NCBI RefSeq assembly: GCF_005377625.1
Contig: NZ_CP040098.1
Location: 2,655,279 to 2,719,278, forward strand
Source of the DNA: Desulfoglaeba alkanexedens ALDC
GTDB taxonomy: Bacteria; Desulfobacterota; Syntrophobacteria; Syntrophobacterales; DSM-9756
Reading direction: 5' to 3'
Length of the DNA stretch: 64,000 nt
The translations under genes were made by a program, and so were the position numbers. Shown one piece after another: positions 45,087 to 56,700 of this stretch (the stretch's first letter is position 1; each line of letters begins with the position of its first letter). The notes beneath the pieces were generated by a model. The model saw only the letters and a program-made list of their open reading frames with translations. It searched no databases and was not told where the DNA came from.

Positions 45087-45972
45087 CAGCAATTCCCGGA
45101 GCGGATGGTCCTTGGATGGAAAGCGGGCGTGAAAGGAGAGTCTTCGAGTGTTCAGCGGACCGTTTGGGGTGATCGAGGGTGCGAACGTCCCGTTCAGGGA
45201 TGCCACCTCGAGCGTGAGGGTTCACATCCTTGGCTTGAAGGCGCACCTCCGCATCGGTTTTTTGGGTGAAAGGCTCAGGTTCTGCATGGGGGCGATTCCT
45301 TTCTCCGCCCTACGAGGTGTTATAGGCGATGATCGGGGTCAGCTCCCATCGGAAAAGACCTTTTCCCACGAAAAACAGCCCGTGCCGTCCAGGGCCAGGA
45401 TGTAGCGGCCGTCCAGCACGGTCATCTGAGCCAGCGCCTTGCCGCGCTGAAGCCGCGAGAAGATCTCGCGGAAGGCGGGTCGGAACACATAGGGCGAAAC
45501 CTCATCGAGAATCTCCCGCATGGTGCTCTCGGAAGAGACCTTCTCGATGTGGTAGAGCGCGTGCAGGTTGTGATCCCGAGCCGACCAGCGTTTCTCAAAG
45601 GCCGGAAGAGAGGGATCCTTCAAAGAAAACATGGCGAAGGCGCTCATGGCCGCATCCGCAAAGGAGATCTGCGGCCTGCCTTTGCGGGGATCGGGAAACT
45701 TTTCGAACTCACGGCGCACCGCCCTCACCAGGGCCATCCGCATTCAGATGCTTGCGAAATCGGATCTTGGAGGAATGAGCGTCTTTTCTGGGCTTTATAG
45801 CAAAATAGCCTACCAGAGACGCGGGCGGCTGTCCAGCATGAAACAGCAAAATAGTCGAAAAAATTCGCCTCCGAAACCCCCTTCGGAGCCCGAAATCACC
45901 CCCTGGGTTCGCGAAAACCAAATCCTTCAAGGCCCGGTTTTCAAGGCTTTACAGGGGCTCCGGAAATTACTG
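45087..45972 (-). mobile_element. insertion sequence, copy 1 (internally deleted)
   Basis: 886 bases bounded by terminal inverted repeats CAGCAATTCCCGGAGC (left) and, read inward from the right, CAGTAATTTCCGGAGC. Compared with copy 2 (59406-61042) it is inverted and lacks about 757 bases of the transposase, joined at the base pair around 45350. No target duplication could be recognised. Confidence 0.8.
45339..45930 (-). pseudogene. DDE transposase N-terminal remnant (IS copy 1)
   Basis: Two frames: HSSKIRFRKHLNAD at the start, a frameshift near 45745, then RREFEKFPDPRKGRPQISFADAAMSAFAMFSLKD through ALDGTGCFSWEKVFSD, where the internal deletion ends the reading frame. Similar along this length to the copy at 59577-60819. 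The IS4-like superfamily is suggested by layout, not by a confirmed match. Confidence 0.75.
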
Positions 45973-45994: not shown

Positions 45995-46735
45995 TTAAGC
46001 CGTCTTTACCTTGATCTTAAGATGTTGAGCTCGCACCCGGTTTTTGGCCCCTAGAAAACGCGCCAGAAACTCGGTCCTGGGATTATAAAACAATTCATCC
46101 GGGGTATCCGTTTGCTCTATCCTTCCTTCGTTGAGCACTGAAACCCGGTCACCCAGAGAAATGGCCTCGTCCTGGTCGTGGGTGACATAGATTGTGGTTA
46201 TCCTTCTCTTTTGCTGGATATTTTTAAATTCACCCAGTATTTTCTCCTTGGTCATGGGATCCAGGTTGCTCATAGGCTCATCCAGAAGCAACACTTGTGG
46301 AGAAGGTGCAAGGGCCCTTGCCAAGGCCACCCGCTGCCTTTCTCCTCCGCTCAAATTGCTAGGATATCTCCGCGCAAGATCCGCGATATTCATCAAATAG
46401 AGCATTTCATTCAGTTTGGTCTCAATCTCATGGACGCACCTCTTTTGCATTTTCAACCCATAGGTGATATTAGAGGCCACATCAAGGTGAGGAAATAGAG
46501 CTAAATCCTGGAGCAGGTATCCGACATGCCTCCGGTTAACCGGTATCCTGTCTATCGACACCCCATCGAAAAGTATGGATCCCTCATACTCGATCAACCC
46601 GCTGACGATATTCAGCAAGGTTGTCTTCCCTGCACCCGTCGGCCCCAAAAGCACCATAAACTCCCCGTCCACAATCTTTAGGTTTATATTGCGACAGATA
46701 AAGTTGCTGATATTTCTCAGCTCAATGGCGGGCAT
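45995..46735 (-). CDS. NitT/TauT-type ABC transporter, ATP-binding protein
   Basis: 246 residues. Walker A GPTGAGKTT, signature LSGGERQRVALARAL, Walker B LLLDEPMSNLD, and switch histidine in THDQDEAISLGD. No C-terminal regulatory domain. It follows the permease with a one-base gap and is the last gene of the AT-richer nif block. Family transports nitrate, sulfonates, bicarbonate, thiamine precursors or metal-complex ligands; here the substrate is unknown. Confidence 0.92.
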   Translation of the reverse strand: MPAIELRNISNFICRNINLKIVDGEFMVLLGPTGAGKTTLLNIVSGLIEYEGSILFDGVSIDRIPVNRRHVGYLLQDLALFPHLDVASNITYGLKMQKRCVHEIETKLNEMLYLMNIADLARRYPSNLSGGERQRVALARALAPSPQVLLLDEPMSNLDPMTKEKILGEFKNIQQKRRITTIYVTHDQDEAISLGDRVSVLNEGRIEQTDTPDELFYNPRTEFLARFLGAKNRVRAQHLKIKVKTA

Positions 46736-46736
46736 A

Positions 46737-47489
46737 TCATCTCCATTTGCCTGTCAGCTTGTGTTCCATGTAAATGAAGAACCTCTCAAAGGATAGACAC
46801 ATCACCGACAGGACTATCAGGCATACTATGACAATATCTATCCTGATGAGGCTTTCGGCCCTCATGAGCAATGCCCCGATACCGGTGGGAATGGCTACCA
46901 TCTCAGCGGCTATTATCACCCGCCAGGCCATCCCTGCTTCGAGCCTCAAACCAGTACATATATTAGGAAGGGCAAGGGGCACAAGTATGGTGCTCAAGAT
47001 TCCTCCTTCAGATGCCCCCAAGGTCTTTGCGACCTTGATAAGATCCTTATCAACGGTCTTGATACCGGTAACGGTGTTATAAAGTACTGGAAAGAACGAA
47101 CAGATAAATATGATCATGATGGGAAGCATCTCACTTATTCCAAACCAGAGCATCAGGACGGGCAGCCAGCCCACAGCAGGAATAGGATAAAGCAGGCTAA
47201 AAATCGGATGAAATGTCTTATTTATACTTTCCTTATAGCCCATCAAAATCCCCATTAACAAACCGGCAATAGACCCGGTGATAAAACCGATCAGGACTCT
47301 GGTCAGGCTCTTCAAAAAGTTGGTCGGCAGAACTCCATTGGCGGTCAGATGATAAAATTCGTGCACGACCGCACTAAAGGGCGGGAAAAAGAAATGGCCC
47401 GGGATCAGCTCCAGTCTGGCTGCCATTTCCCAGATAAACAAAAAGACAAATACAGGGAACAGGCTGTAAGCAGCTTTTATCCTCTCCAT
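46737..47489 (-). CDS. NitT/TauT-type ABC transporter, permease
   Basis: 250 residues, about six membrane helices, SsuC/TauC/NrtB type. The EAA loop that contacts the ATPase reads KTLGASEGGILSTILVPLALP, followed by AGMAWRVIIAAEM. Separated by 66 bases from the binding-protein gene upstream. Confidence 0.92.
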   Translation of the reverse strand: MERIKAAYSLFPVFVFLFIWEMAARLELIPGHFFFPPFSAVVHEFYHLTANGVLPTNFLKSLTRVLIGFITGSIAGLLMGILMGYKESINKTFHPIFSLLYPIPAVGWLPVLMLWFGISEMLPIMIIFICSFFPVLYNTVTGIKTVDKDLIKVAKTLGASEGGILSTILVPLALPNICTGLRLEAGMAWRVIIAAEMVAIPTGIGALLMRAESLIRIDIVIVCLIVLSVMCLSFERFFIYMEHKLTGKWR

Positions 47490-47555
47490 TTAAGCTCCTC
47501 GTAATTAGCCGGGTGATTAGGGCGAAGGCTGTTGGATAACTTCTGCCTTCAACCT

Positions 47556-48584
47556 TTAGTCTATCCACCTGTTTACAAAATCCTCCGCCCTAAATGAGTC
47601 TTTTATGTATTCTAATTCAACGCATACCTCTATCGTTTTCTGGATTTCTATTGGATTAATAGCAGTAGTATTAACCAATCTTACCGTTAATGATTTAAAT
47701 ATTGATAAGGGAGTGATCACGATTTTGGAAGCCGCATCAATGGCTTTGACAGGAAATATCTTTTTCCCGGCAACCTGTAATTCTCCGGCAACAATCTCTG
47801 CTGCCTCTTCAGGATGACCATTGATAAATTGTGTTGCTCGCTCAGTAACCTTCACCAATTTTTCGACTATATCAGGATACTCATTTATGAGTTCTTCCCT
47901 TACCACCAAAACACTGCCCTGCATATTCAGCCAGAGATCTTCTGCCGTCAAAAATACTTTGAACCCTAATTCTTCTGCCATGGTGGGAAATTGCTCAGAA
48001 ATAAAAGCCGCATCCAATTGGCCCATTTTCAGGGCAAGAAGGAGCTCAGGGGGATTCATCCTTCTGACCTTTTTTAATATTTCCTTCTTGTCTAAGCGGT
48101 GTTTTTCTATCATCTTATGCAGGAGTGCATCAACGGGACTGCCTTCTCGAGTGCATCCAATACGAATGCCTTCCTTTTTCAGGTCGCCGATAGTCCTGAC
48201 TCTGTGAGGATTAACAACAAAGCCATATCCGTATTTATGGATTCCAGCTACAATCTTTATCGGCACATTGGCATTGGCCTTAGCAGTTATAGCCGGAATC
48301 AAACAGATGTAAGCGGCATCAATATCACCTTGCGCCAGAGCAACGGCAAGAGCCATGCCGGTTATATAGTATTCATACCTGGCAATGGTTAAGCCTTCCT
48401 CTTTATACCAGCCCTTTTTTCTGGCTATATGAGCACAGGCAGAATGAGTAGTAAATTCTACTGCTATGCTGATGGGCTTTGTTTTGGCAGAGACAGGATC
48501 TTCGCTGGATCTTCCACGAGCGAGTGCGATGGGACAAACAAGAGAAACCAGCAATACCAGAGATGTCGCCATCAGGCTTTTCAT
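47556..48584 (-). CDS. NitT/TauT-type ABC transporter, substrate-binding protein
   Basis: 342 residues from the ATG nine bases after GGAGG; a second ATG at 48593 lies too near it. Signal peptide (LMATSLVLLVSLVCPIALARG) with cleavage near ALA-RG. The body is NMT1/SsuA-like: HSACAHIARKKGWYKEEGLTI, GMALAVALAQGDIDAAY, GSPVDALLHKMIEK and a late LVRLVNTTA region. Substrates in the family are small anions or sulfonates. It starts only 20 bases after nifE, so it belongs to the nif operon. Confidence 0.88.
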   Translation of the reverse strand: MKSLMATSLVLLVSLVCPIALARGRSSEDPVSAKTKPISIAVEFTTHSACAHIARKKGWYKEEGLTIARYEYYITGMALAVALAQGDIDAAYICLIPAITAKANANVPIKIVAGIHKYGYGFVVNPHRVRTIGDLKKEGIRIGCTREGSPVDALLHKMIEKHRLDKKEILKKVRRMNPPELLLALKMGQLDAAFISEQFPTMAEELGFKVFLTAEDLWLNMQGSVLVVREELINEYPDIVEKLVKVTERATQFINGHPEEAAEIVAGELQVAGKKIFPVKAIDAASKIVITPLSIFKSLTVRLVNTTAINPIEIQKTIEVCVELEYIKDSFRAEDFVNRWID

Positions 48585-48603
48585 GCTGATCATCCTCCGG
48601 AAG

Positions 48604-49926
48604 CTATAGGTTTAGGCTTGCGAGTTTCCATACCGGGGCATGAACGGCATTATGGACACTAGCGGCAAGATTCAGAAACCCCTTGAAGCCCACATATGGG
48701 CCGGCACATTTGAGCTGTGGAAAGAGGCAGAACCCAATGCCGAATTTATGAGAAAGAAATTGTTCTTTAATGCCTCCCATAAAGACATCGGGTCTCAATT
48801 CATCAAGCAGGTGCTCCAGATCCTGTTCTGACGCATCGTCTATTATATAGGTGCCCGGGTTAACGTTCCGCCAGGCATCCTTATAAGTAGACGAATCGCC
48901 GAATTGAGAGCCTGTAAATGTTACCTCGATTCCCATGTCATCCAGGGCCTTGACAAGAGAGGCCATGCGCGCAGCTCCAAAAAAAAGGGCTGCTTTCTTG
49001 CCTTTGAGTCTAGGTAAAAGACGCTCGAGCCCAGGTTTTATGGCTTTATATTCTGTGGCAATGACCTTTTCAGCCTGCGATTCCAGACCGAAGTATTGTC
49101 CGATCCTGCGCAGGCTGGCTATGGTCTGGGAAAGTCCCAGGAAAGTGACCTCCAAATAGGGTATTCCATACCTCTTCTGAAGGCCCTCCGTCAAAAAGCG
49201 CGCTGAATTCTGGCATATAAGCAGATTGAGTTTTACCCTATGCGCAGCAGTGATTCCCTCATAATCCGCATGACCAGTAAAGACGCAGCGAACCCTTATG
49301 CCCATCTGTTCCAAAAGGGATTTCAAGACCATGCTCTCGCCATTGATGTTGTAGTCGCCGATGATGTTTACGTCGTGCAACCCCGCTTCCGTTCGTTCAC
49401 CCTGGCCGACCAGGTGGTCTAAAAGGGATTCAAAGGCGATCCTATGACCGCTTGCCTGACTGTCTCCTTTAAAACCCGGGCAGTTGACAAAGATGACCGG
49501 AAAGCCGAATTCCTTTTCCATCTCTTTGCAAATACCGGCTATGTCATCACCAATAATGGCCGCGCTGCATGTGGCATAAACAAAGCAATACTTTGCATGA
49601 GGCATGACGGCCCTTGCCTCTTTAAGTGTCCTTATAAGTCGTTTACCGCCGCCGAAGACGATATCCTTTTCTTTCAAGGCAGTGGAAAACACACGAAAGG
49701 GCCTGCCTCTCACGGTGCCGCCATAGTAGGCGCAACCCACAGGCCCGTGCACTATATGGATAGCGTCTTCCAATGGGGCGAGCATCCAGCGCGCCCCGTA
49801 AAATGCACAACTGCGCTGTGTGATTTTCCCCGGGGTAGATGGACGGCTGCAGAGGGGAAGATCGGCGCCGTTTTTCCTTTTTTGGACCAAATGGGTCCCG
49901 ATATTGCAATTTAGGCAATCGTTCAT
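48604..49926 (-). CDS. nifE: NifE-like nitrogenase cofactor scaffold protein
   Basis: 440 residues from ATG (GTG at 49935 also possible; AAAGG lies nine bases before the ATG). Its cluster cysteines C40 (SCAFYGA), C65 (GPVGCAYY) and C120 (YATCSAAIIGDD) match the P-cluster-type site of NifE, and a C in LLICQNSARF matches the cofactor-holding cysteine. At the NifD histidine ligand position it reads PQLKCAGPYVGF, with no histidine, as expected for a scaffold. An unusual CLNC pair sits at residues 4-7. NifE works as NifE2N2, yet nifN is absent from the window. Confidence 0.85.
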   Translation of the reverse strand: MNDCLNCNIGTHLVQKRKNGADLPLCSRPSTPGKITQRSCAFYGARWMLAPLEDAIHIVHGPVGCAYYGGTVRGRPFRVFSTALKEKDIVFGGGKRLIRTLKEARAVMPHAKYCFVYATCSAAIIGDDIAGICKEMEKEFGFPVIFVNCPGFKGDSQASGHRIAFESLLDHLVGQGERTEAGLHDVNIIGDYNINGESMVLKSLLEQMGIRVRCVFTGHADYEGITAAHRVKLNLLICQNSARFLTEGLQKRYGIPYLEVTFLGLSQTIASLRRIGQYFGLESQAEKVIATEYKAIKPGLERLLPRLKGKKAALFFGAARMASLVKALDDMGIEVTFTGSQFGDSSTYKDAWRNVNPGTYIIDDASEQDLEHLLDELRPDVFMGGIKEQFLSHKFGIGFCLFPQLKCAGPYVGFKGFLNLAASVHNAVHAPVWKLASLNL

Positions 49927-49955
49927 TTTATTCACGCCTTTATTCGGATAGAGAT

Positions 49956-51464
49956 CTATTGGTGTATGCGATCATCCGGGAATTTGCTGTCCAGGAGCGT
50001 ATTCACTATGAGGTCAAGCAGGTACTCGCCTCCCCGGTAGCCCACGTAGGCCCGGCGCTGGTAGCCGACGCGGTCGTATATTGGAAATCCGATACGCACC
50101 AGCGGCGCATTCGCTTCTTTTGAAATATTTGCAGCCTTGGAGTTGCTCAGGATCAGATCGATCTTGTTCTTTTTGATATATTCCTCCCATTCAAACATGT
50201 CGCTGCCGTTTAAGATGACCGGCTCGAAATCATATTCATGTACTGTCTCCCATACATCTTTGACAAACTGTTTGCTTTCCGTCCCGCTTCCAACGATTAC
50301 CGGTACCATGCCCAGTTCGCAGGAAAACCTTGAGGCCGCTGCGGCGATGTCAGGATCTCCGTATATAGCCACGCGCACGCCCATGGTATAGTGAAAGGTG
50401 TCAGCCATCGCGTCAATCAGGATGCCGCGTTCGTCCTTTATCTCATCCGTAATAGGCTTTCCTGTTATCTCCGAAAGATTTTTTATGAAGGAATCGGTGT
50501 AGCGTATACCTAAGGGCATTGGGCCAATTATAGCCGGCACCTTGAACCGCTTCTCAAGGTAGGTTGCGCCGGCTTCTCCTGCATCATGACAGAGGGCGAA
50601 TGTGGCCAGAGAGCTTCCCATATCGACAATCTCTTCAACCCTGGTGCCTCCCTTGGGATAATAGGGCATGGATTGGGGCAGGCGCAGAGGGCAATCAAGC
50701 GTTCCGGATATGTCAAACAGGATGGTACCCTCTATATCCATCAACTTAAGGATGTGTTTTATCTCCCTGATATCCCCGGGGGTGATCATGCCCGGGATGA
50801 TATTTACCTTGTTGTTCGGGGAGCTCCGTTTGGCCAGAGTCTTTAAAAATGCGGCGGACGCCCGGTTGTATCCCTCCACATGAGAACCGACAAAGCTGGG
50901 GGTATGAATTATAATGAACTTGACCTCATCAAAGATATCGGGGCCGAATTCCTCTTCCAGACTGTCTCGGGCCTCCTCCAGAAAACCTTCCATGTCGTCC
51001 CCGATGATCTCGCTTGAGCACACAGTGACAATGGCAATGACCTCGGGGTGGTAACGGATGATAAGATTGCGCAATCCCTCGATGAAGTTCTTCCGCCCGC
51101 CGAATACCGCCGTCTCTTCATGAAAGGAGGCCGTAGCGATAGAGACAGGCTCCCTGAAGATACGGGAGAAGGTATACCGTGGATAGGTGGTGCAACCCTG
51201 TGCGCCCTGGACAAATGGGATGCATTTATGGACCCCCACGCCCGCCCACAAGGCCCCAAACGGCATGCAGATGCGGCCTGGATCCATAACAAAGGATCTA
51301 TTTGATGAAGGAATGATATCCTGATCCGGCGCCTGATATTCAGGACAGATAGGCTCCTTTTCTATATACATTTGATCATATGTAATGCCCTCAATAGGGA
51401 TCTCGGGCAAGGCGTTAAGTTCTTCTATGGTGAGCCTTCCATTCAGTTTTAAAGATGTAGTCAT
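49956..51464 (-). CDS. nifK: nitrogenase beta subunit (NifK, Vnf/Anf-like)
   Basis: 502 residues from MTTSLKLNG, with AGGAGG six bases upstream and ten bases after the nifD stop. P-cluster ligands are all present: C66 (GRICMPFG), C91 (GAQGCTTY), C149 (VTVCSSEIIGDD) and S190 (HTPSFVGSH). FREPVSIATASFHEETAVFGG is the standard docking segment. The beta subunit pairs with NifD and holds one side of the P cluster. The N-terminal extension of Mo-NifK is short here. Confidence 0.92.
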   Translation of the reverse strand: MTTSLKLNGRLTIEELNALPEIPIEGITYDQMYIEKEPICPEYQAPDQDIIPSSNRSFVMDPGRICMPFGALWAGVGVHKCIPFVQGAQGCTTYPRYTFSRIFREPVSIATASFHEETAVFGGRKNFIEGLRNLIIRYHPEVIAIVTVCSSEIIGDDMEGFLEEARDSLEEEFGPDIFDEVKFIIIHTPSFVGSHVEGYNRASAAFLKTLAKRSSPNNKVNIIPGMITPGDIREIKHILKLMDIEGTILFDISGTLDCPLRLPQSMPYYPKGGTRVEEIVDMGSSLATFALCHDAGEAGATYLEKRFKVPAIIGPMPLGIRYTDSFIKNLSEITGKPITDEIKDERGILIDAMADTFHYTMGVRVAIYGDPDIAAAASRFSCELGMVPVIVGSGTESKQFVKDVWETVHEYDFEPVILNGSDMFEWEEYIKKNKIDLILSNSKAANISKEANAPLVRIGFPIYDRVGYQRRAYVGYRGGEYLLDLIVNTLLDSKFPDDRIHQ

Positions 51465-51474
51465 GGTATTCCTC

Positions 51475-52920
51475 CTAAATAAAATCGTTGTCCCTGACGA
51501 ATTTCCAGACAGGCGCGTAAACCCCCTGATATATATCCCTGGCAAAGTTCACCATGCCCCTGAAGCAGGCATAGGGACCCTTTTCATAGGAATGTGAATT
51601 TACTGTCGGCACCCCAAACTTGCGGCAGAGATATTTTTCCTTTAAGCCGGTGAGAAACAGGTCGGGCTTAAACCTCTCCAGACACTCCTCGATCTCGAAT
51701 TCATTGGGACTGTCCACAAGGAAAACACCGTCTTCCGCCCTGGCATTGATTTTTTCGTAGTCGTCATCATGGGCAAAGGTGCACATGCCAAAGACCACCT
51801 TCATACCTAATTCGTGCATAAGCTTCTGCCAGTGCCATACCCGTGGCCCGCCTACATAAATGCCCACTCTTTTGCCTGACAACTTTTCCCTGTAGAAATC
51901 TATGGCCGGAGATACGACCTTGAGTTCTTGTTCAATGATCTGCTCTGCCTTCTGCTTCATATCTTCAGAGCCGAAGAATGCGGCAACCTTTCTTAATGCC
52001 TCTGCTGTCTGCTCCAGGCCGAACAGACTTACGTTCACATAGGGGACCTCAAAACCTTCAACTAGCAGCTTAGAGATATAGGTGCAGGACCGCTGGCAGT
52101 GGAGTACATTCAGCTTGACATCAGGCAATTTCATTAAATTTTCAAGGCGCTCGCCGCCGGTAAAGACCAATACGACACGACACCCCAGCTTTTCAAAAAG
52201 AGGCTTGATATAAGCCAGATCCCAGTCCATATTGAAGTCGCCGACAATGGCAATGTCATACGGCCCCTTTTCCTCTTCGTTCATACAGGCTTCCGGGTGT
52301 TTCTCTCTATACTCCGTTATCTGTTCATAGAACTGGATATTGAAATGGTGATGCCCAATAGACTGGCTAACCCCGCAAAAGCCAGGAGAATCAAAAACAA
52401 ATACAGGCTTGCCGATCTCTTTTTGAACCCTTCGGGCCACAGCATGGCAGTCATCTCCGATAAGCCCGCTGGTGCACGTGGTAAAGATCAGGATGCCTCC
52501 AGCGCCCGGGACAAGACGCCAGGCCTCAAGGCATGCCTTTTCGAGCTTTTCCGTGCCCCCAAAGACCACATCCTTTTCCTGCAAGTCTGTGCTGATAGCA
52601 TGCCTGCGGTTATGAGAATCATTGCAGAGCACACCGGGACCTGCCCAGGAATAAATGGCCGAAAGATTCCTCCGGGTGCCCCACTGATACCAGGCGCATC
52701 CGGCCGGTGAATGGACTACCTGAATACAGTCGCCGATTGGTCCGCCAATGACTCCACGGCATCCGGCAAAGGCGCAACCGCGCTCAGTCATATCCCCGGG
52801 TATGGTTTTGATATTGTTTGCGGGGATATTGGGCTCTTTTCTGTTTGTGAGCGCATGATGCATATATCTCTCAGGTATAGTAATGTCGCATTTTAACTTG
52901 TATTCTTCTGGAATAGCCAT
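51475..52920 (-). CDS. nifD: nitrogenase alpha subunit (NifD with Vnf/Anf-like loop)
   Basis: 481 residues. P-cluster ligands C49 (RGCAFAG), C75 (SPAGCAWY) and C149 (TTCTSGLIGDD); active-site cofactor ligands C275 (LHCQRS) and H443 (NSHSYEKGPY); catalytic-site Q186 and H190 (GVSQSIGHH), V57 and R83. All correspond to essential residues of A. vinelandii NifD. The cofactor loop reads VGGPRVWHW (355-365), which is the form of vanadium/iron-only alpha subunits and not the GGLRPRH of molybdenum NifD, and position E380 of NifD is T381 here. The metal used cannot be decided from sequence. Confidence 0.93.
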   Translation of the reverse strand: MAIPEEYKLKCDITIPERYMHHALTNRKEPNIPANNIKTIPGDMTERGCAFAGCRGVIGGPIGDCIQVVHSPAGCAWYQWGTRRNLSAIYSWAGPGVLCNDSHNRRHAISTDLQEKDVVFGGTEKLEKACLEAWRLVPGAGGILIFTTCTSGLIGDDCHAVARRVQKEIGKPVFVFDSPGFCGVSQSIGHHHFNIQFYEQITEYREKHPEACMNEEEKGPYDIAIVGDFNMDWDLAYIKPLFEKLGCRVVLVFTGGERLENLMKLPDVKLNVLHCQRSCTYISKLLVEGFEVPYVNVSLFGLEQTAEALRKVAAFFGSEDMKQKAEQIIEQELKVVSPAIDFYREKLSGKRVGIYVGGPRVWHWQKLMHELGMKVVFGMCTFAHDDDYEKINARAEDGVFLVDSPNEFEIEECLERFKPDLFLTGLKEKYLCRKFGVPTVNSHSYEKGPYACFRGMVNFARDIYQGVYAPVWKFVRDNDFI

Positions 52921-52947: not shown

Positions 52948-53823
52948 TCAGTGACTGCACAGAGCACAGGGTGCAGTATTGACGGTGGTATACGGATAAG
53001 GGCATGCCTCTTGCTGAACCTCTCTTCCTGGTTCCTCCCCGGGTACCCCTGCCGCATCGGCCCTGCATTGCTTGCAGAGATACCATTGGTTGATTATTGG
53101 GAGACATTGCGCTCGGACCCTGCTGATTTCGTTTGGCGCAGGCGAAGGCAGCCCGGAAAAAATGCCCAAAGGGATCAAAGGCATAATGTTCATGATATGG
53201 GCGCCTGCGTCCCTCATCTCTCGGGCAATCTCAACAACGTGGTCAGAATTGATACCCGGAATGAATACAGTATTTACCTTTACAAAAAATCCCATACGGC
53301 TGGCCTGATAAATCCCTTCCATCTGACGTTCCAGTAATATTCGGGCACCTTCCAGTCCGTGATAGACATGCCCCTTCCACATGACCCTTGTATATATTCT
53401 CTCGCCTATTTCCGGATTTACCGCATTGAGCGTTACCGTAAGATAATTCACGCCCAGTTCTTTCAGAAGCGGAAGCTTATCTGCGAGCAGTAGTCCGTTG
53501 GTACTCAGACACTTTGTTAGACCCGGGAAATACTCTTTGACGAGGGCAAAGGTCTCGAATGTGGCCTCGTTGGCCAGAGGATCACCCGGACCGGCAACGG
53601 CGGCAATCTGAATACGAGGTTCAAGGGTAAGCGCCTGTTTCAGGCGGCTTAATGCCTTGCTTGGCCTGATGACTTCCTGGGTGATACCCGGACGATTCTC
53701 AAGCGCGCCTACACTTCGCACACAATAACCGCATCTAATATTGCAAGTAGGAGCGACCGGCAGGTGAATCCGACCAATCTGGAAATGCGCCTCCGGGTCA
53801 TAACAGGGATGTGCTAACCACAT
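52948..53823 (-). CDS. nifB: NifB radical-SAM cofactor assembly protein
   Basis: 291 residues from MWLAHPCYD with AAAGGAG before the ATG. Makes the NifB-co (Fe8S9C) precursor. Radical-SAM ligands C27-C31-C34 (TCNIRCGYC); the auxiliary-cluster residues HPC (5-7), and CKQCRADAAG near the C-terminus; AGPGDPLAN and NIMPLIPLGIF complete the family pattern. It has no NifX domain, so it is the short, archaeal/clostridial-type form. The tail ends in CPYPYTT and CALCSH, an extra cysteine cluster. Position between nifI2 and nifD is unusual. Confidence 0.9.
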   Translation of the reverse strand: MWLAHPCYDPEAHFQIGRIHLPVAPTCNIRCGYCVRSVGALENRPGITQEVIRPSKALSRLKQALTLEPRIQIAAVAGPGDPLANEATFETFALVKEYFPGLTKCLSTNGLLLADKLPLLKELGVNYLTVTLNAVNPEIGERIYTRVMWKGHVYHGLEGARILLERQMEGIYQASRMGFFVKVNTVFIPGINSDHVVEIAREMRDAGAHIMNIMPLIPLGIFSGLPSPAPNEISRVRAQCLPIINQWYLCKQCRADAAGVPGEEPGREVQQEACPYPYTTVNTAPCALCSH

Positions 53824-53834
53824 GGTTTCTCCTT

Positions 53835-54212
53835 TCACGCAAGAGCTTGAGCGCCCTTTTCTCCTGTCCTGATCCGGAGCGCTTCTTCCACCGGGCAGAC
53901 AAAGATGCGCCCATCGCCGTAATGACCGGTCTGATTGGCCTGAATAATTGTATCTACTATCCTGGTGATGTCTTCATCATCCACGACCAGATACAAAAGG
54001 CGTTTAGGGATATATTTCATGCCACCATGTTTAGCCATTTGACTGACTTCCGGACTTACTGAAAAACTTACTTCATCGACAATGCCTTTCTGTTTTCCCC
54101 GGCCAAACACCCTGTAGTTAAAGACGGTAATTGATGGAAAGCCAATCTCTTCCAAGGCCTTTTTGGTACTGTAGACCTTGTTTACCCGGATAATCGCGTA
54201 GATTTCCTTCAT
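53835..54212 (-). CDS. nifI2: PII-like regulator NifI2
   Basis: 125 residues of the GlnB superfamily. Contains the T-loop region GRGKQKGIVDEVSFSV and GDGRIFVCPVEEALRIRTGEKG. NifI1/NifI2 bind the nitrogenase in response to 2-oxoglutarate and ATP and switch its activity off when fixed nitrogen is plentiful. Position after nifI1 is standard. Its stop lies 12 bases before the nifB ATG. Confidence 0.93.
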   Translation of the reverse strand: MKEIYAIIRVNKVYSTKKALEEIGFPSITVFNYRVFGRGKQKGIVDEVSFSVSPEVSQMAKHGGMKYIPKRLLYLVVDDEDITRIVDTIIQANQTGHYGDGRIFVCPVEEALRIRTGEKGAQALA

Positions 54213-54221
54213 CTGCTCCCC

Positions 54222-54539
54222 CTACATCCCCTTGGCGCCGGTCCTGATCGTATAGGCCTCTTCAACCGGCGTAATAAATATTTTTCCGTCGCCAAAATGA
54301 CCTGTTCGCCCCTTTTCTATAATGGTATTTGCGATTTTATCCACCTTATCATCGTCTGTTACGATCATAAGCATCGTCTTAGGCAATTCGTCATAATGAA
54401 TACCGCCGACATCCAGTCCCTTTTGTTTGCCCCTTCCAACCACATCTATCTTGGTAAGCGCGACAAAACCTTCTTCAGCCAGGGCATCTACGACTTCTTC
54501 CACCTTCTCGGGCCTAACGATTCCCTTTATCATCTTCAT
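54222..54539 (-). CDS. nifI1: PII-like regulator NifI1
   Basis: 105 residues. Motifs VVGRGKQKGLDVGG (T loop) and GDGKIFITPVEEAYTIRTG. Forms a heterohexamer with NifI2 that inhibits the dinitrogenase. It follows nifH by about 90 bases on the same strand; nifI1-nifI2 between nifH and nifD is typical of methanogens and anaerobic bacteria. Confidence 0.93.
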   Translation of the reverse strand: MKMIKGIVRPEKVEEVVDALAEEGFVALTKIDVVGRGKQKGLDVGGIHYDELPKTMLMIVTDDDKVDKIANTIIEKGRTGHFGDGKIFITPVEEAYTIRTGAKGM

Positions 54540-54632: not shown

Positions 54633-55809
<1,177 letters not shown>

Positions 55810-56246: not shown

Positions 56247-56499
56247 AGTCCCCTCTAGAACGCAACGGATCCCGCAGCGCGGGTAATCTTTACGGAGGGA
56301 AAAGTTCTTCGGCGGCTTCGAAATGAACCCGGCCCAAGAGGACCATGGCGGTAAAGGCAAATGGCCTTGACACCGTCTTCCAGATGGTCTAAGGCGTTAC
56401 GAAAAAGTTGTGTGTTGGGGGTGTCCTCTTGGCAGAGCTGAGAGCTTACCTTCGAACTTGAGCTGGGTAATATTAGCAAAAAGGAAACACCGCACTTCA

Positions 56500-56700
56500 A
56501 GTGGTACGGTGCTGCGGGATCGAAAAGGCGCTGGGCACACACCAAAACGGATTCTGGCTGCTGGTGACGAATCACCAGGAAAAGGAGGGTGAAGTTTTCC
56601 AGGTGGCGGCGCCGGAGGCCATCGTCCCATATCGGGAAAAGGTGGTGATTGAGGGGGCACTTCGCGACATCGAACATTTTGGGAGTGCATCAAGATTGAC
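56500..56700 (+). pseudogene. IS1634-type transposase fragment
   Basis: A short stretch of DDE transposase C-terminal region: NGFWLLVTNHQEKEGE, VAAPEAIVPYREKVVIEGALRDIEHF, then degraded sequence. The 56247-56499 and 56701-56838 flanks show nothing I can name apart from the leader of the next operon. Confidence 0.6.

Follow-up and report, generated by a model that had tools for sequence, protein, structure and literature searches.

Three genes for an ABC transporter are built into a nif operon of Desulfoglaeba alkanexedens ALDC, within the 64,000-nucleotide stretch of DNA analysed here (the window). The same arrangement is found in Candidatus Smithella cisternae M82_1, and operon membership is real in these two genomes. 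From the genome context, we give about even chances to the reading that this cassette imports a metal oxyanion or metal chelate for the nitrogenase cofactor.

The nif operon and its transporter genes

All genes of the block lie on the minus strand, in the order nifH-I1-I2-B-D-K-E followed by the transporter genes. The nifH gene (54633..55457; TIGR01287, 451 bits against a cut-off of 394) precedes two genes of the P-II family, nifI1 (54222..54539; P-II, 92 bits) and nifI2 (53835..54212; P-II, 87 bits), and a nifB of the radical-SAM form encoding 296 aa (52948..53838; Radical_SAM, with 269 bits to the nifB model, below its cut-off of 344). The product of nifD (51475..52920) surpasses the cut-off of the N2-ase-Ialpha model (507 against 486 bits). 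Matches to nifK (49956..51464) reached 386, 376 and 355 bits for the vnfK, anfK and nifK models, all below their cut-offs, and nifE (48604..49935), which is 88% identical to its Smithella M82 counterpart, likewise scored below cut-off against both its best model, N2-ase-Ialpha (426 bits), and the nifE model (390 bits). On the plus strand, opposite to nif, a weak TPP-riboswitch-like match lies at 56407-56502 (35 bits; gathering score 54.3).

The P-cluster and cofactor ligand residues are kept in the window NifD, where the corresponding Cys and His align with those of VnfD and AnfD. Its nearest solved relatives are nitrogenase alpha chains, the best being 9spz_A (626 bits), and in pairwise comparison it shares 60-62% identity with the group III NifD proteins that contain selenocysteine. 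A whole-genome Oxidored_nitro search returned just three genes above cut-off; with three component-1 genes in total, nifN is therefore missing, and the description of nifE without nifN in the initial annotation is borne out. The same is true of its remark that nifV was not seen: no nifV-like gene of the window genome exceeds the curated cut-off, and the best match, far below it, sits in a 553-aa open frame resembling LeuA. With a nitrogenase-type NifD carrying P-cluster Cys and cofactor Cys/His, with nifE and without nifN, the window nitrogenase is, judged by sequence, of the known F-Mc (group C) type; its D and K subunits are not those of the Isr/Mar-type group IV. Group C/F-Mc nitrogenases usually have no nifN, and among them Methanocaldococcus FS406-22 has been shown to fix N2 and Caldicellulosiruptor to grow in an N2-dependent manner (PMC8809328, PMC8209448, PMC3464626, PMC7216921). 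In seven genomes (L097-L103), TGA replaces a P-cluster cysteine of NifD (alpha-Cys62) and a tRNA-Sec match accompanies each, marking these as selenocysteine nitrogenases; selenocysteine in group III NifD has been known since PMC3760896.

The three transporter open reading frames are intact and co-directional. Closest to nifE is an NMT1/SsuA-type substrate-binding protein of 345 aa (47556..48593; NMT1_2, 78 bits; SsuA_fam, 125 bits, below the cut-off of 163.5), which TauA likewise matched. It is followed by a 250-aa ABC permease of the SaoP/TauC/SsuC type (46737..47489; BPD_transp_1; SaoP 154 and TauC 135 bits, both below cut-off; NtrB also matched) and by an ABC ATPase of 246 aa (45995..46735; ABC_tran; best NCBIfam matches PhnT2, WtpC and PotA) with a complete nucleotide-binding domain and a missing TOBE tail. 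Gaps of 10, 66 and 1 bp separate nifE from the binding-protein gene, the latter from the permease gene, and the permease gene from the ATPase gene. The initial annotation had put the first of these at 20 bases: the close spacing stands, but the distance is 10 bp from the start ATG at 48593 and 19-20 bp only from a second in-frame ATG at 48584. It had rightly stated that the three genes share strand and base composition with nif, at 45.7% GC for the transporter and 49.6% for nif. The flanks have 62% and 56% GC, and on account of this difference the nif-transporter block looks acquired.

The NitT/TauT label given earlier to the transporter fits two of its components, the binding protein (NMT1/SsuA class) and the permease (TauC/SsuC class, though below equivalog cut-offs). 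It does not fit the ATPase, which is not of the SsuB/TauB/NrtD class without TOBE and for which ntrCD scored far lower than PhnT2, WtpC and PotA. An AlphaFold model of the binding protein (pLDDT 88.8) gave NitT/TauT-class structural matches, at approximately 15-22% identity, whose ligands are taurine or 2-aminoethylphosphonate, sulfonates, thiamine, PQQ, nitrate and bicarbonate. The comparison confirms the predicted fold class of the binding protein and leaves its ligand undecided. Conserved residues of the protein include Glu46, His50, His119, Arg178 and Glu200. It has no detectable sequence relation to ModA and is not a binding protein of the ModA or TupA class found in ModABC and TupABC, and a search of a plasmid collection with it returned zero relatives.

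A single capture shared with Smithella, and later trimming

Candidatus Smithella cisternae M82_1 (MAEO01000128) carries the same transporter after nifE in the same gene order, and by blastn the two regions are approximately 92% identical in DNA from nifH into the ATPase gene. A nifHDKEB set without nifN has been reported for this organism, and the passages of that report on the subject make no mention of a transporter beside nif (PMC5606693). In Smithella the transporter is directly followed by a nifV-type (homocitrate-synthase-type) gene (388 bits, below the cut-off of 463); placed between nifE and this gene, it is thus an internal part of the operon and not a terminal one. Comparison of the two copies gave a dN/dS of 0.30 for the binding protein, 0.16 for the permease and 0.25 for the ATPase, at a dS of approximately 0.2-0.3; the nif genes measured in the same pair (nifH left out) gave 0.08-0.40. 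Values so far below 1 at this divergence indicate that purifying selection has continued to act on the transporter after the copies diverged. Thus the earlier claim that the transporter is built into the nif operon is upheld, both by the shared arrangement and by a dN/dS below 1 for all three genes.

Recurrence of the linkage was surveyed by sequence in this phylum, with the F-Mc clusters of Bacillota and archaea covered through the literature. When 395 phylum genomes were searched with the binding protein, and the surrounding DNA taken for all matches, homologues were present in 32 (approximately 8%, window included), and in all cassette loci but one the permease gene adjoins that of the binding protein. 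Within the fetched DNA, nif genes accompany the cassette in two of the 32 genomes, the window and Smithella M82, a count from which more distant nif genes would escape where cassette contigs are short. Conversely, a NifD search of 394 phylum genomes gave 11 F-Mc clusters, nine of which are without this transporter type next to nifE, the exceptions being the same two; a contig scan with NifE, which relied on two short peptide patterns, yielded only Smithella M82. The three phylum genome samples overlap heavily. The window and Smithella transporters are sisters, next to a stand-alone cassette (L053). Together with the DNA identity of approximately 92%, this position points, for the genomes sampled, to a single capture of the cassette by an F-Mc nif operon. 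The initial annotation had let its proposal stand or fall with conserved adjacency to nifE-without-nifN clusters. Such recurrence was not found (2 of 11 clusters, one event), which within the phylum largely goes against that proposal.

Other insertions were seen in nif clusters of the survey. A cyanase gene, cynS (approximately 195 bits, cut-off 113), lies within F-Mc nif operons of distant hosts (L096:6804-7253, L100:7264-7710 and L103:12246-12680) and as a decayed copy at L102:12093-12348, in two different positions: nifI2-cynS-nifB and nifK-cynS-nifE. Two ordinary nif clusters from the window's own family (L006:2954-3094 and the matching part of L007) have a short ORF between nifE and nifN whose end is 53-57% identical to the cyanase C-terminus.

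The window copy differs from that of Smithella at both ends. DNA homology between them starts 14 bp before nifH and ends at a breakpoint inside the ATPase gene (46038..46042, minus strand; blastn end at 46040), past which the window ATPase terminates after a few new codons. At 246 aa it is shorter than those of 17 relatives (347-411 aa); the Smithella ATPase has a TOBE_2 tail, whereas the window protein retains the nucleotide-binding domain alone. Both the ATPase tail and nifV were looked for in the window and neither is present. Beyond the break lies a 134-aa ORF (45339..45743, minus strand) which by eye resembles a transposase fragment and has no Pfam or NCBIfam match. Upstream of nifH, a sigma-54-type promoter is present in Smithella and none was found in the window; scans for sigma-70 promoters and terminators were near or below chance. 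Trimming at both ends makes expression of the window operon uncertain; it may be altered, or the operon may be in decay. In Smithella M82, the sigma-54-type promoter and the complete nifH are separated by a truncated nifH (L052:5051-5440), and it is just before the complete gene that the DNA common with the window starts.

Cargo of the transporter

Neighbouring genes were recorded across the 32 cassette loci, and the commonest are mostly adjacent to the cassette and co-directional. DUF364 genes, whose 'heavy-metal chelation' role is putative, occur in 11 of the loci (adjacent and co-directional in nine), PadR regulators in seven, and full-length copies of an Alginate_exp-type porin in five. 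In a structural paper, DUF364 is described in the company of PadR regulators and of transport genes for molybdate, tungstate, vanadium and iron (PMC2954201). Outright mod or tup genes are found in only two cassette loci. In one of them (L060), the cassette comes after modA, modB, an ATPase gene and a porin gene, in that order. In the other (L046), tupA- and modA-type genes stand ahead of the cassette with a modB-type permease, an ATPase and the porin, and behind it are a tupB-type permease, a further ATPase and an HTH/PBP regulator. Importers of the molybdate, tungstate and NitT/TauT types thus share a single co-directional stretch (L046:2579-13750) with the porin and the regulator. The window genome's own modA-modB locus opens with the same porin type (44.5% identity over 440 aa), and in the closest cousin nif cluster (L096; NifD 81%) a modA gene (104 bits against a cut-off of 62.5) comes after nifE, along with the beginning of a porin of this type. 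By association, the DUF364, PadR, porin and mod/tup neighbours favour uptake of a metal oxyanion or chelate.

The initial annotation had proposed metal-oxyanion import among several options, and it is this option that the genome context supports; the lack of a detectable relation to ModA and the restriction of mod/tup genes to two loci tell against it. According to this reading, a three-gene ABC importer cassette, whose relatives in other genomes of the phylum sit with metal-uptake genes, would have entered an F-Mc nif operon on a single occasion, at a site between nifE and nifV. The cargo would be either a metal oxyanion, with molybdate or a relative such as tungstate or vanadate as the most likely choice, or a chelate of a metal of this kind. 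Each time the nif operon is transcribed, the imported metal would become available to NifB, NifE and NifDK for building the cofactor. The window copy would later have lost its ATPase tail, nifV and the Smithella-type promoter. An operon position held in two genomes under purifying selection argues for metal import, as does an ATPase resembling WtpC, PhnT2 and PotA that carries TOBE_2 when full length. Against it, the genome already possesses a modA-modB locus, the nif link is a single event, and the structural neighbours of the binding protein bind organic sulfonates, nitrate, bicarbonate, thiamine and PQQ. If metal import is correct, the cassette would reveal which form of metal feeds nifN-less nitrogenases.

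The strongest rival, which we consider plausible yet improbable, is that the cassette entered the nif operon by rearrangement as a passenger, serves general uptake unrelated to nitrogenase and is now damaged in the window. Its plausibility comes from the single capture event and from the missing ATPase tail, nifV and promoter of the window copy, and the cassette family normally lives without nif; it sits poorly with a dN/dS of 0.16-0.30 for the three genes at the dS observed, and with a Smithella cassette that has nif genes on both sides. Were it true, the locus would show a minimal nif operon being assembled, moved and trimmed between distant bacteria. We think it distinctly less probable that the imported compound, for example a sulfonate, is one that the nitrogenase itself reduces. 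The analogy is with Rhodobacter capsulatus, whose growth on isethionate requires both SsuCAB and IsrBHDK (PMC11423573), and the binding protein does match SsuA_fam and TauA. However, IsrDK belongs to group IV, with approximately 17% similarity to NifDK (PMC11423573), the window NifD scores above the nitrogenase cut-off with its ligand residues kept, and no sulfonate-metabolism genes were seen beside the cassettes. This earlier suggestion survives with nothing in its favour beyond the isethionate-reductase precedent.

Import of an organic acid that replaces homocitrate, or feeds its synthesis, would suit a genome without nifV over cut-off, and nifV follows the transporter in Smithella. But there the homocitrate-synthase-type gene is the immediate neighbour of the transporter, which therefore did not originate as a homocitrate replacement; with no such partner seen beside cassettes elsewhere, this proposal of the initial annotation loses ground, and we hold it to be very unlikely. 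Slightly less credit still can be given to uptake of cyanate or another small nitrogen source, as by related NrtABCD/CynABD-type transporters. Cyanate was taken seriously after cyanase genes had been met within several related nif operons, and the binding protein belongs to the nitrate/bicarbonate fold class, but a test of 29 genomes with the cassette, among them the window genome and Smithella, found cyanase in none, and the four cyanase-bearing genomes have no cassette. Cyanate uptake was rejected because cyanase is absent from those 29. The least probable of all is a thiamine-precursor (HMP) importer of the ThiY/NMT1 type, a role suggested by the Pfam name NMT1/THI5 and by the thiamine-bound 4nmy and the HMP-precursor protein 3ix1 among the structural matches. 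Thiamine-precursor uptake is not supported, since none of 22 cassette loci has a TPP riboswitch at the gathering score; the single TPP-like match near the window cluster scores below cut-off and lies on the strand opposite to nif.

Comparison with known systems

In its boldest form, the metal-import reading posits a new class of metal-oxyanion or chelate importer, in which a binding protein of the NitT/TauT fold works with a TOBE-type ATPase, often alongside DUF364, and which feeds a NifN-less nitrogenase. We put this forward tentatively, as a possibility to which we attach clearly less than even weight. If the cassette does carry a metal form, a metal-uptake family is present in approximately 8% of the phylum sample, currently labelled by sequence models as nitrate, sulfonate or taurine transport.

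In its nif genes the window resembles the F-Mc/group C clusters of Methanocaldococcus FS406-22, Caldicellulosiruptor and Desulforudis, which share nifH, I1, I2, D, K, E and B without nifN and the same NifD type. They differ in that published descriptions, on which alone this comparison is based, mention no NitT/TauT transporter in nif. An ABC importer adjoining nitrogenase genes has a precedent in VupABC, the vanadate importer beside vnf on the Nostoc C052 plasmid. A Vup-type transporter was considered after PMC2954201 had named vanadium genes and was rejected, as VupA and VupB are not homologous to the window proteins; the ATPase alone matches, at 30%.

Among named families, SaoX/SaoP (NCBIfam) provides the permease's best match (154 bits) and the binding protein's second (72 bits), yet these scores are far below the cut-offs of 295 and 300. 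With SsuABC, TauABC and NrtABC the cassette shares the fold of its binding protein and the class of its permease, whereas its ATPase is a TOBE-type one of the PhnT2/WtpC/PotA class, and no sulfonate or nitrate enzymes were seen near the cassettes. From ModABC, WtpABC and TupABC it differs in its binding protein, of the NMT1/SsuA class and without detectable relation to ModA; it resembles them in being a three-gene importer with a TOBE-type ATPase, in occasional co-location with their genes and in a common porin type.
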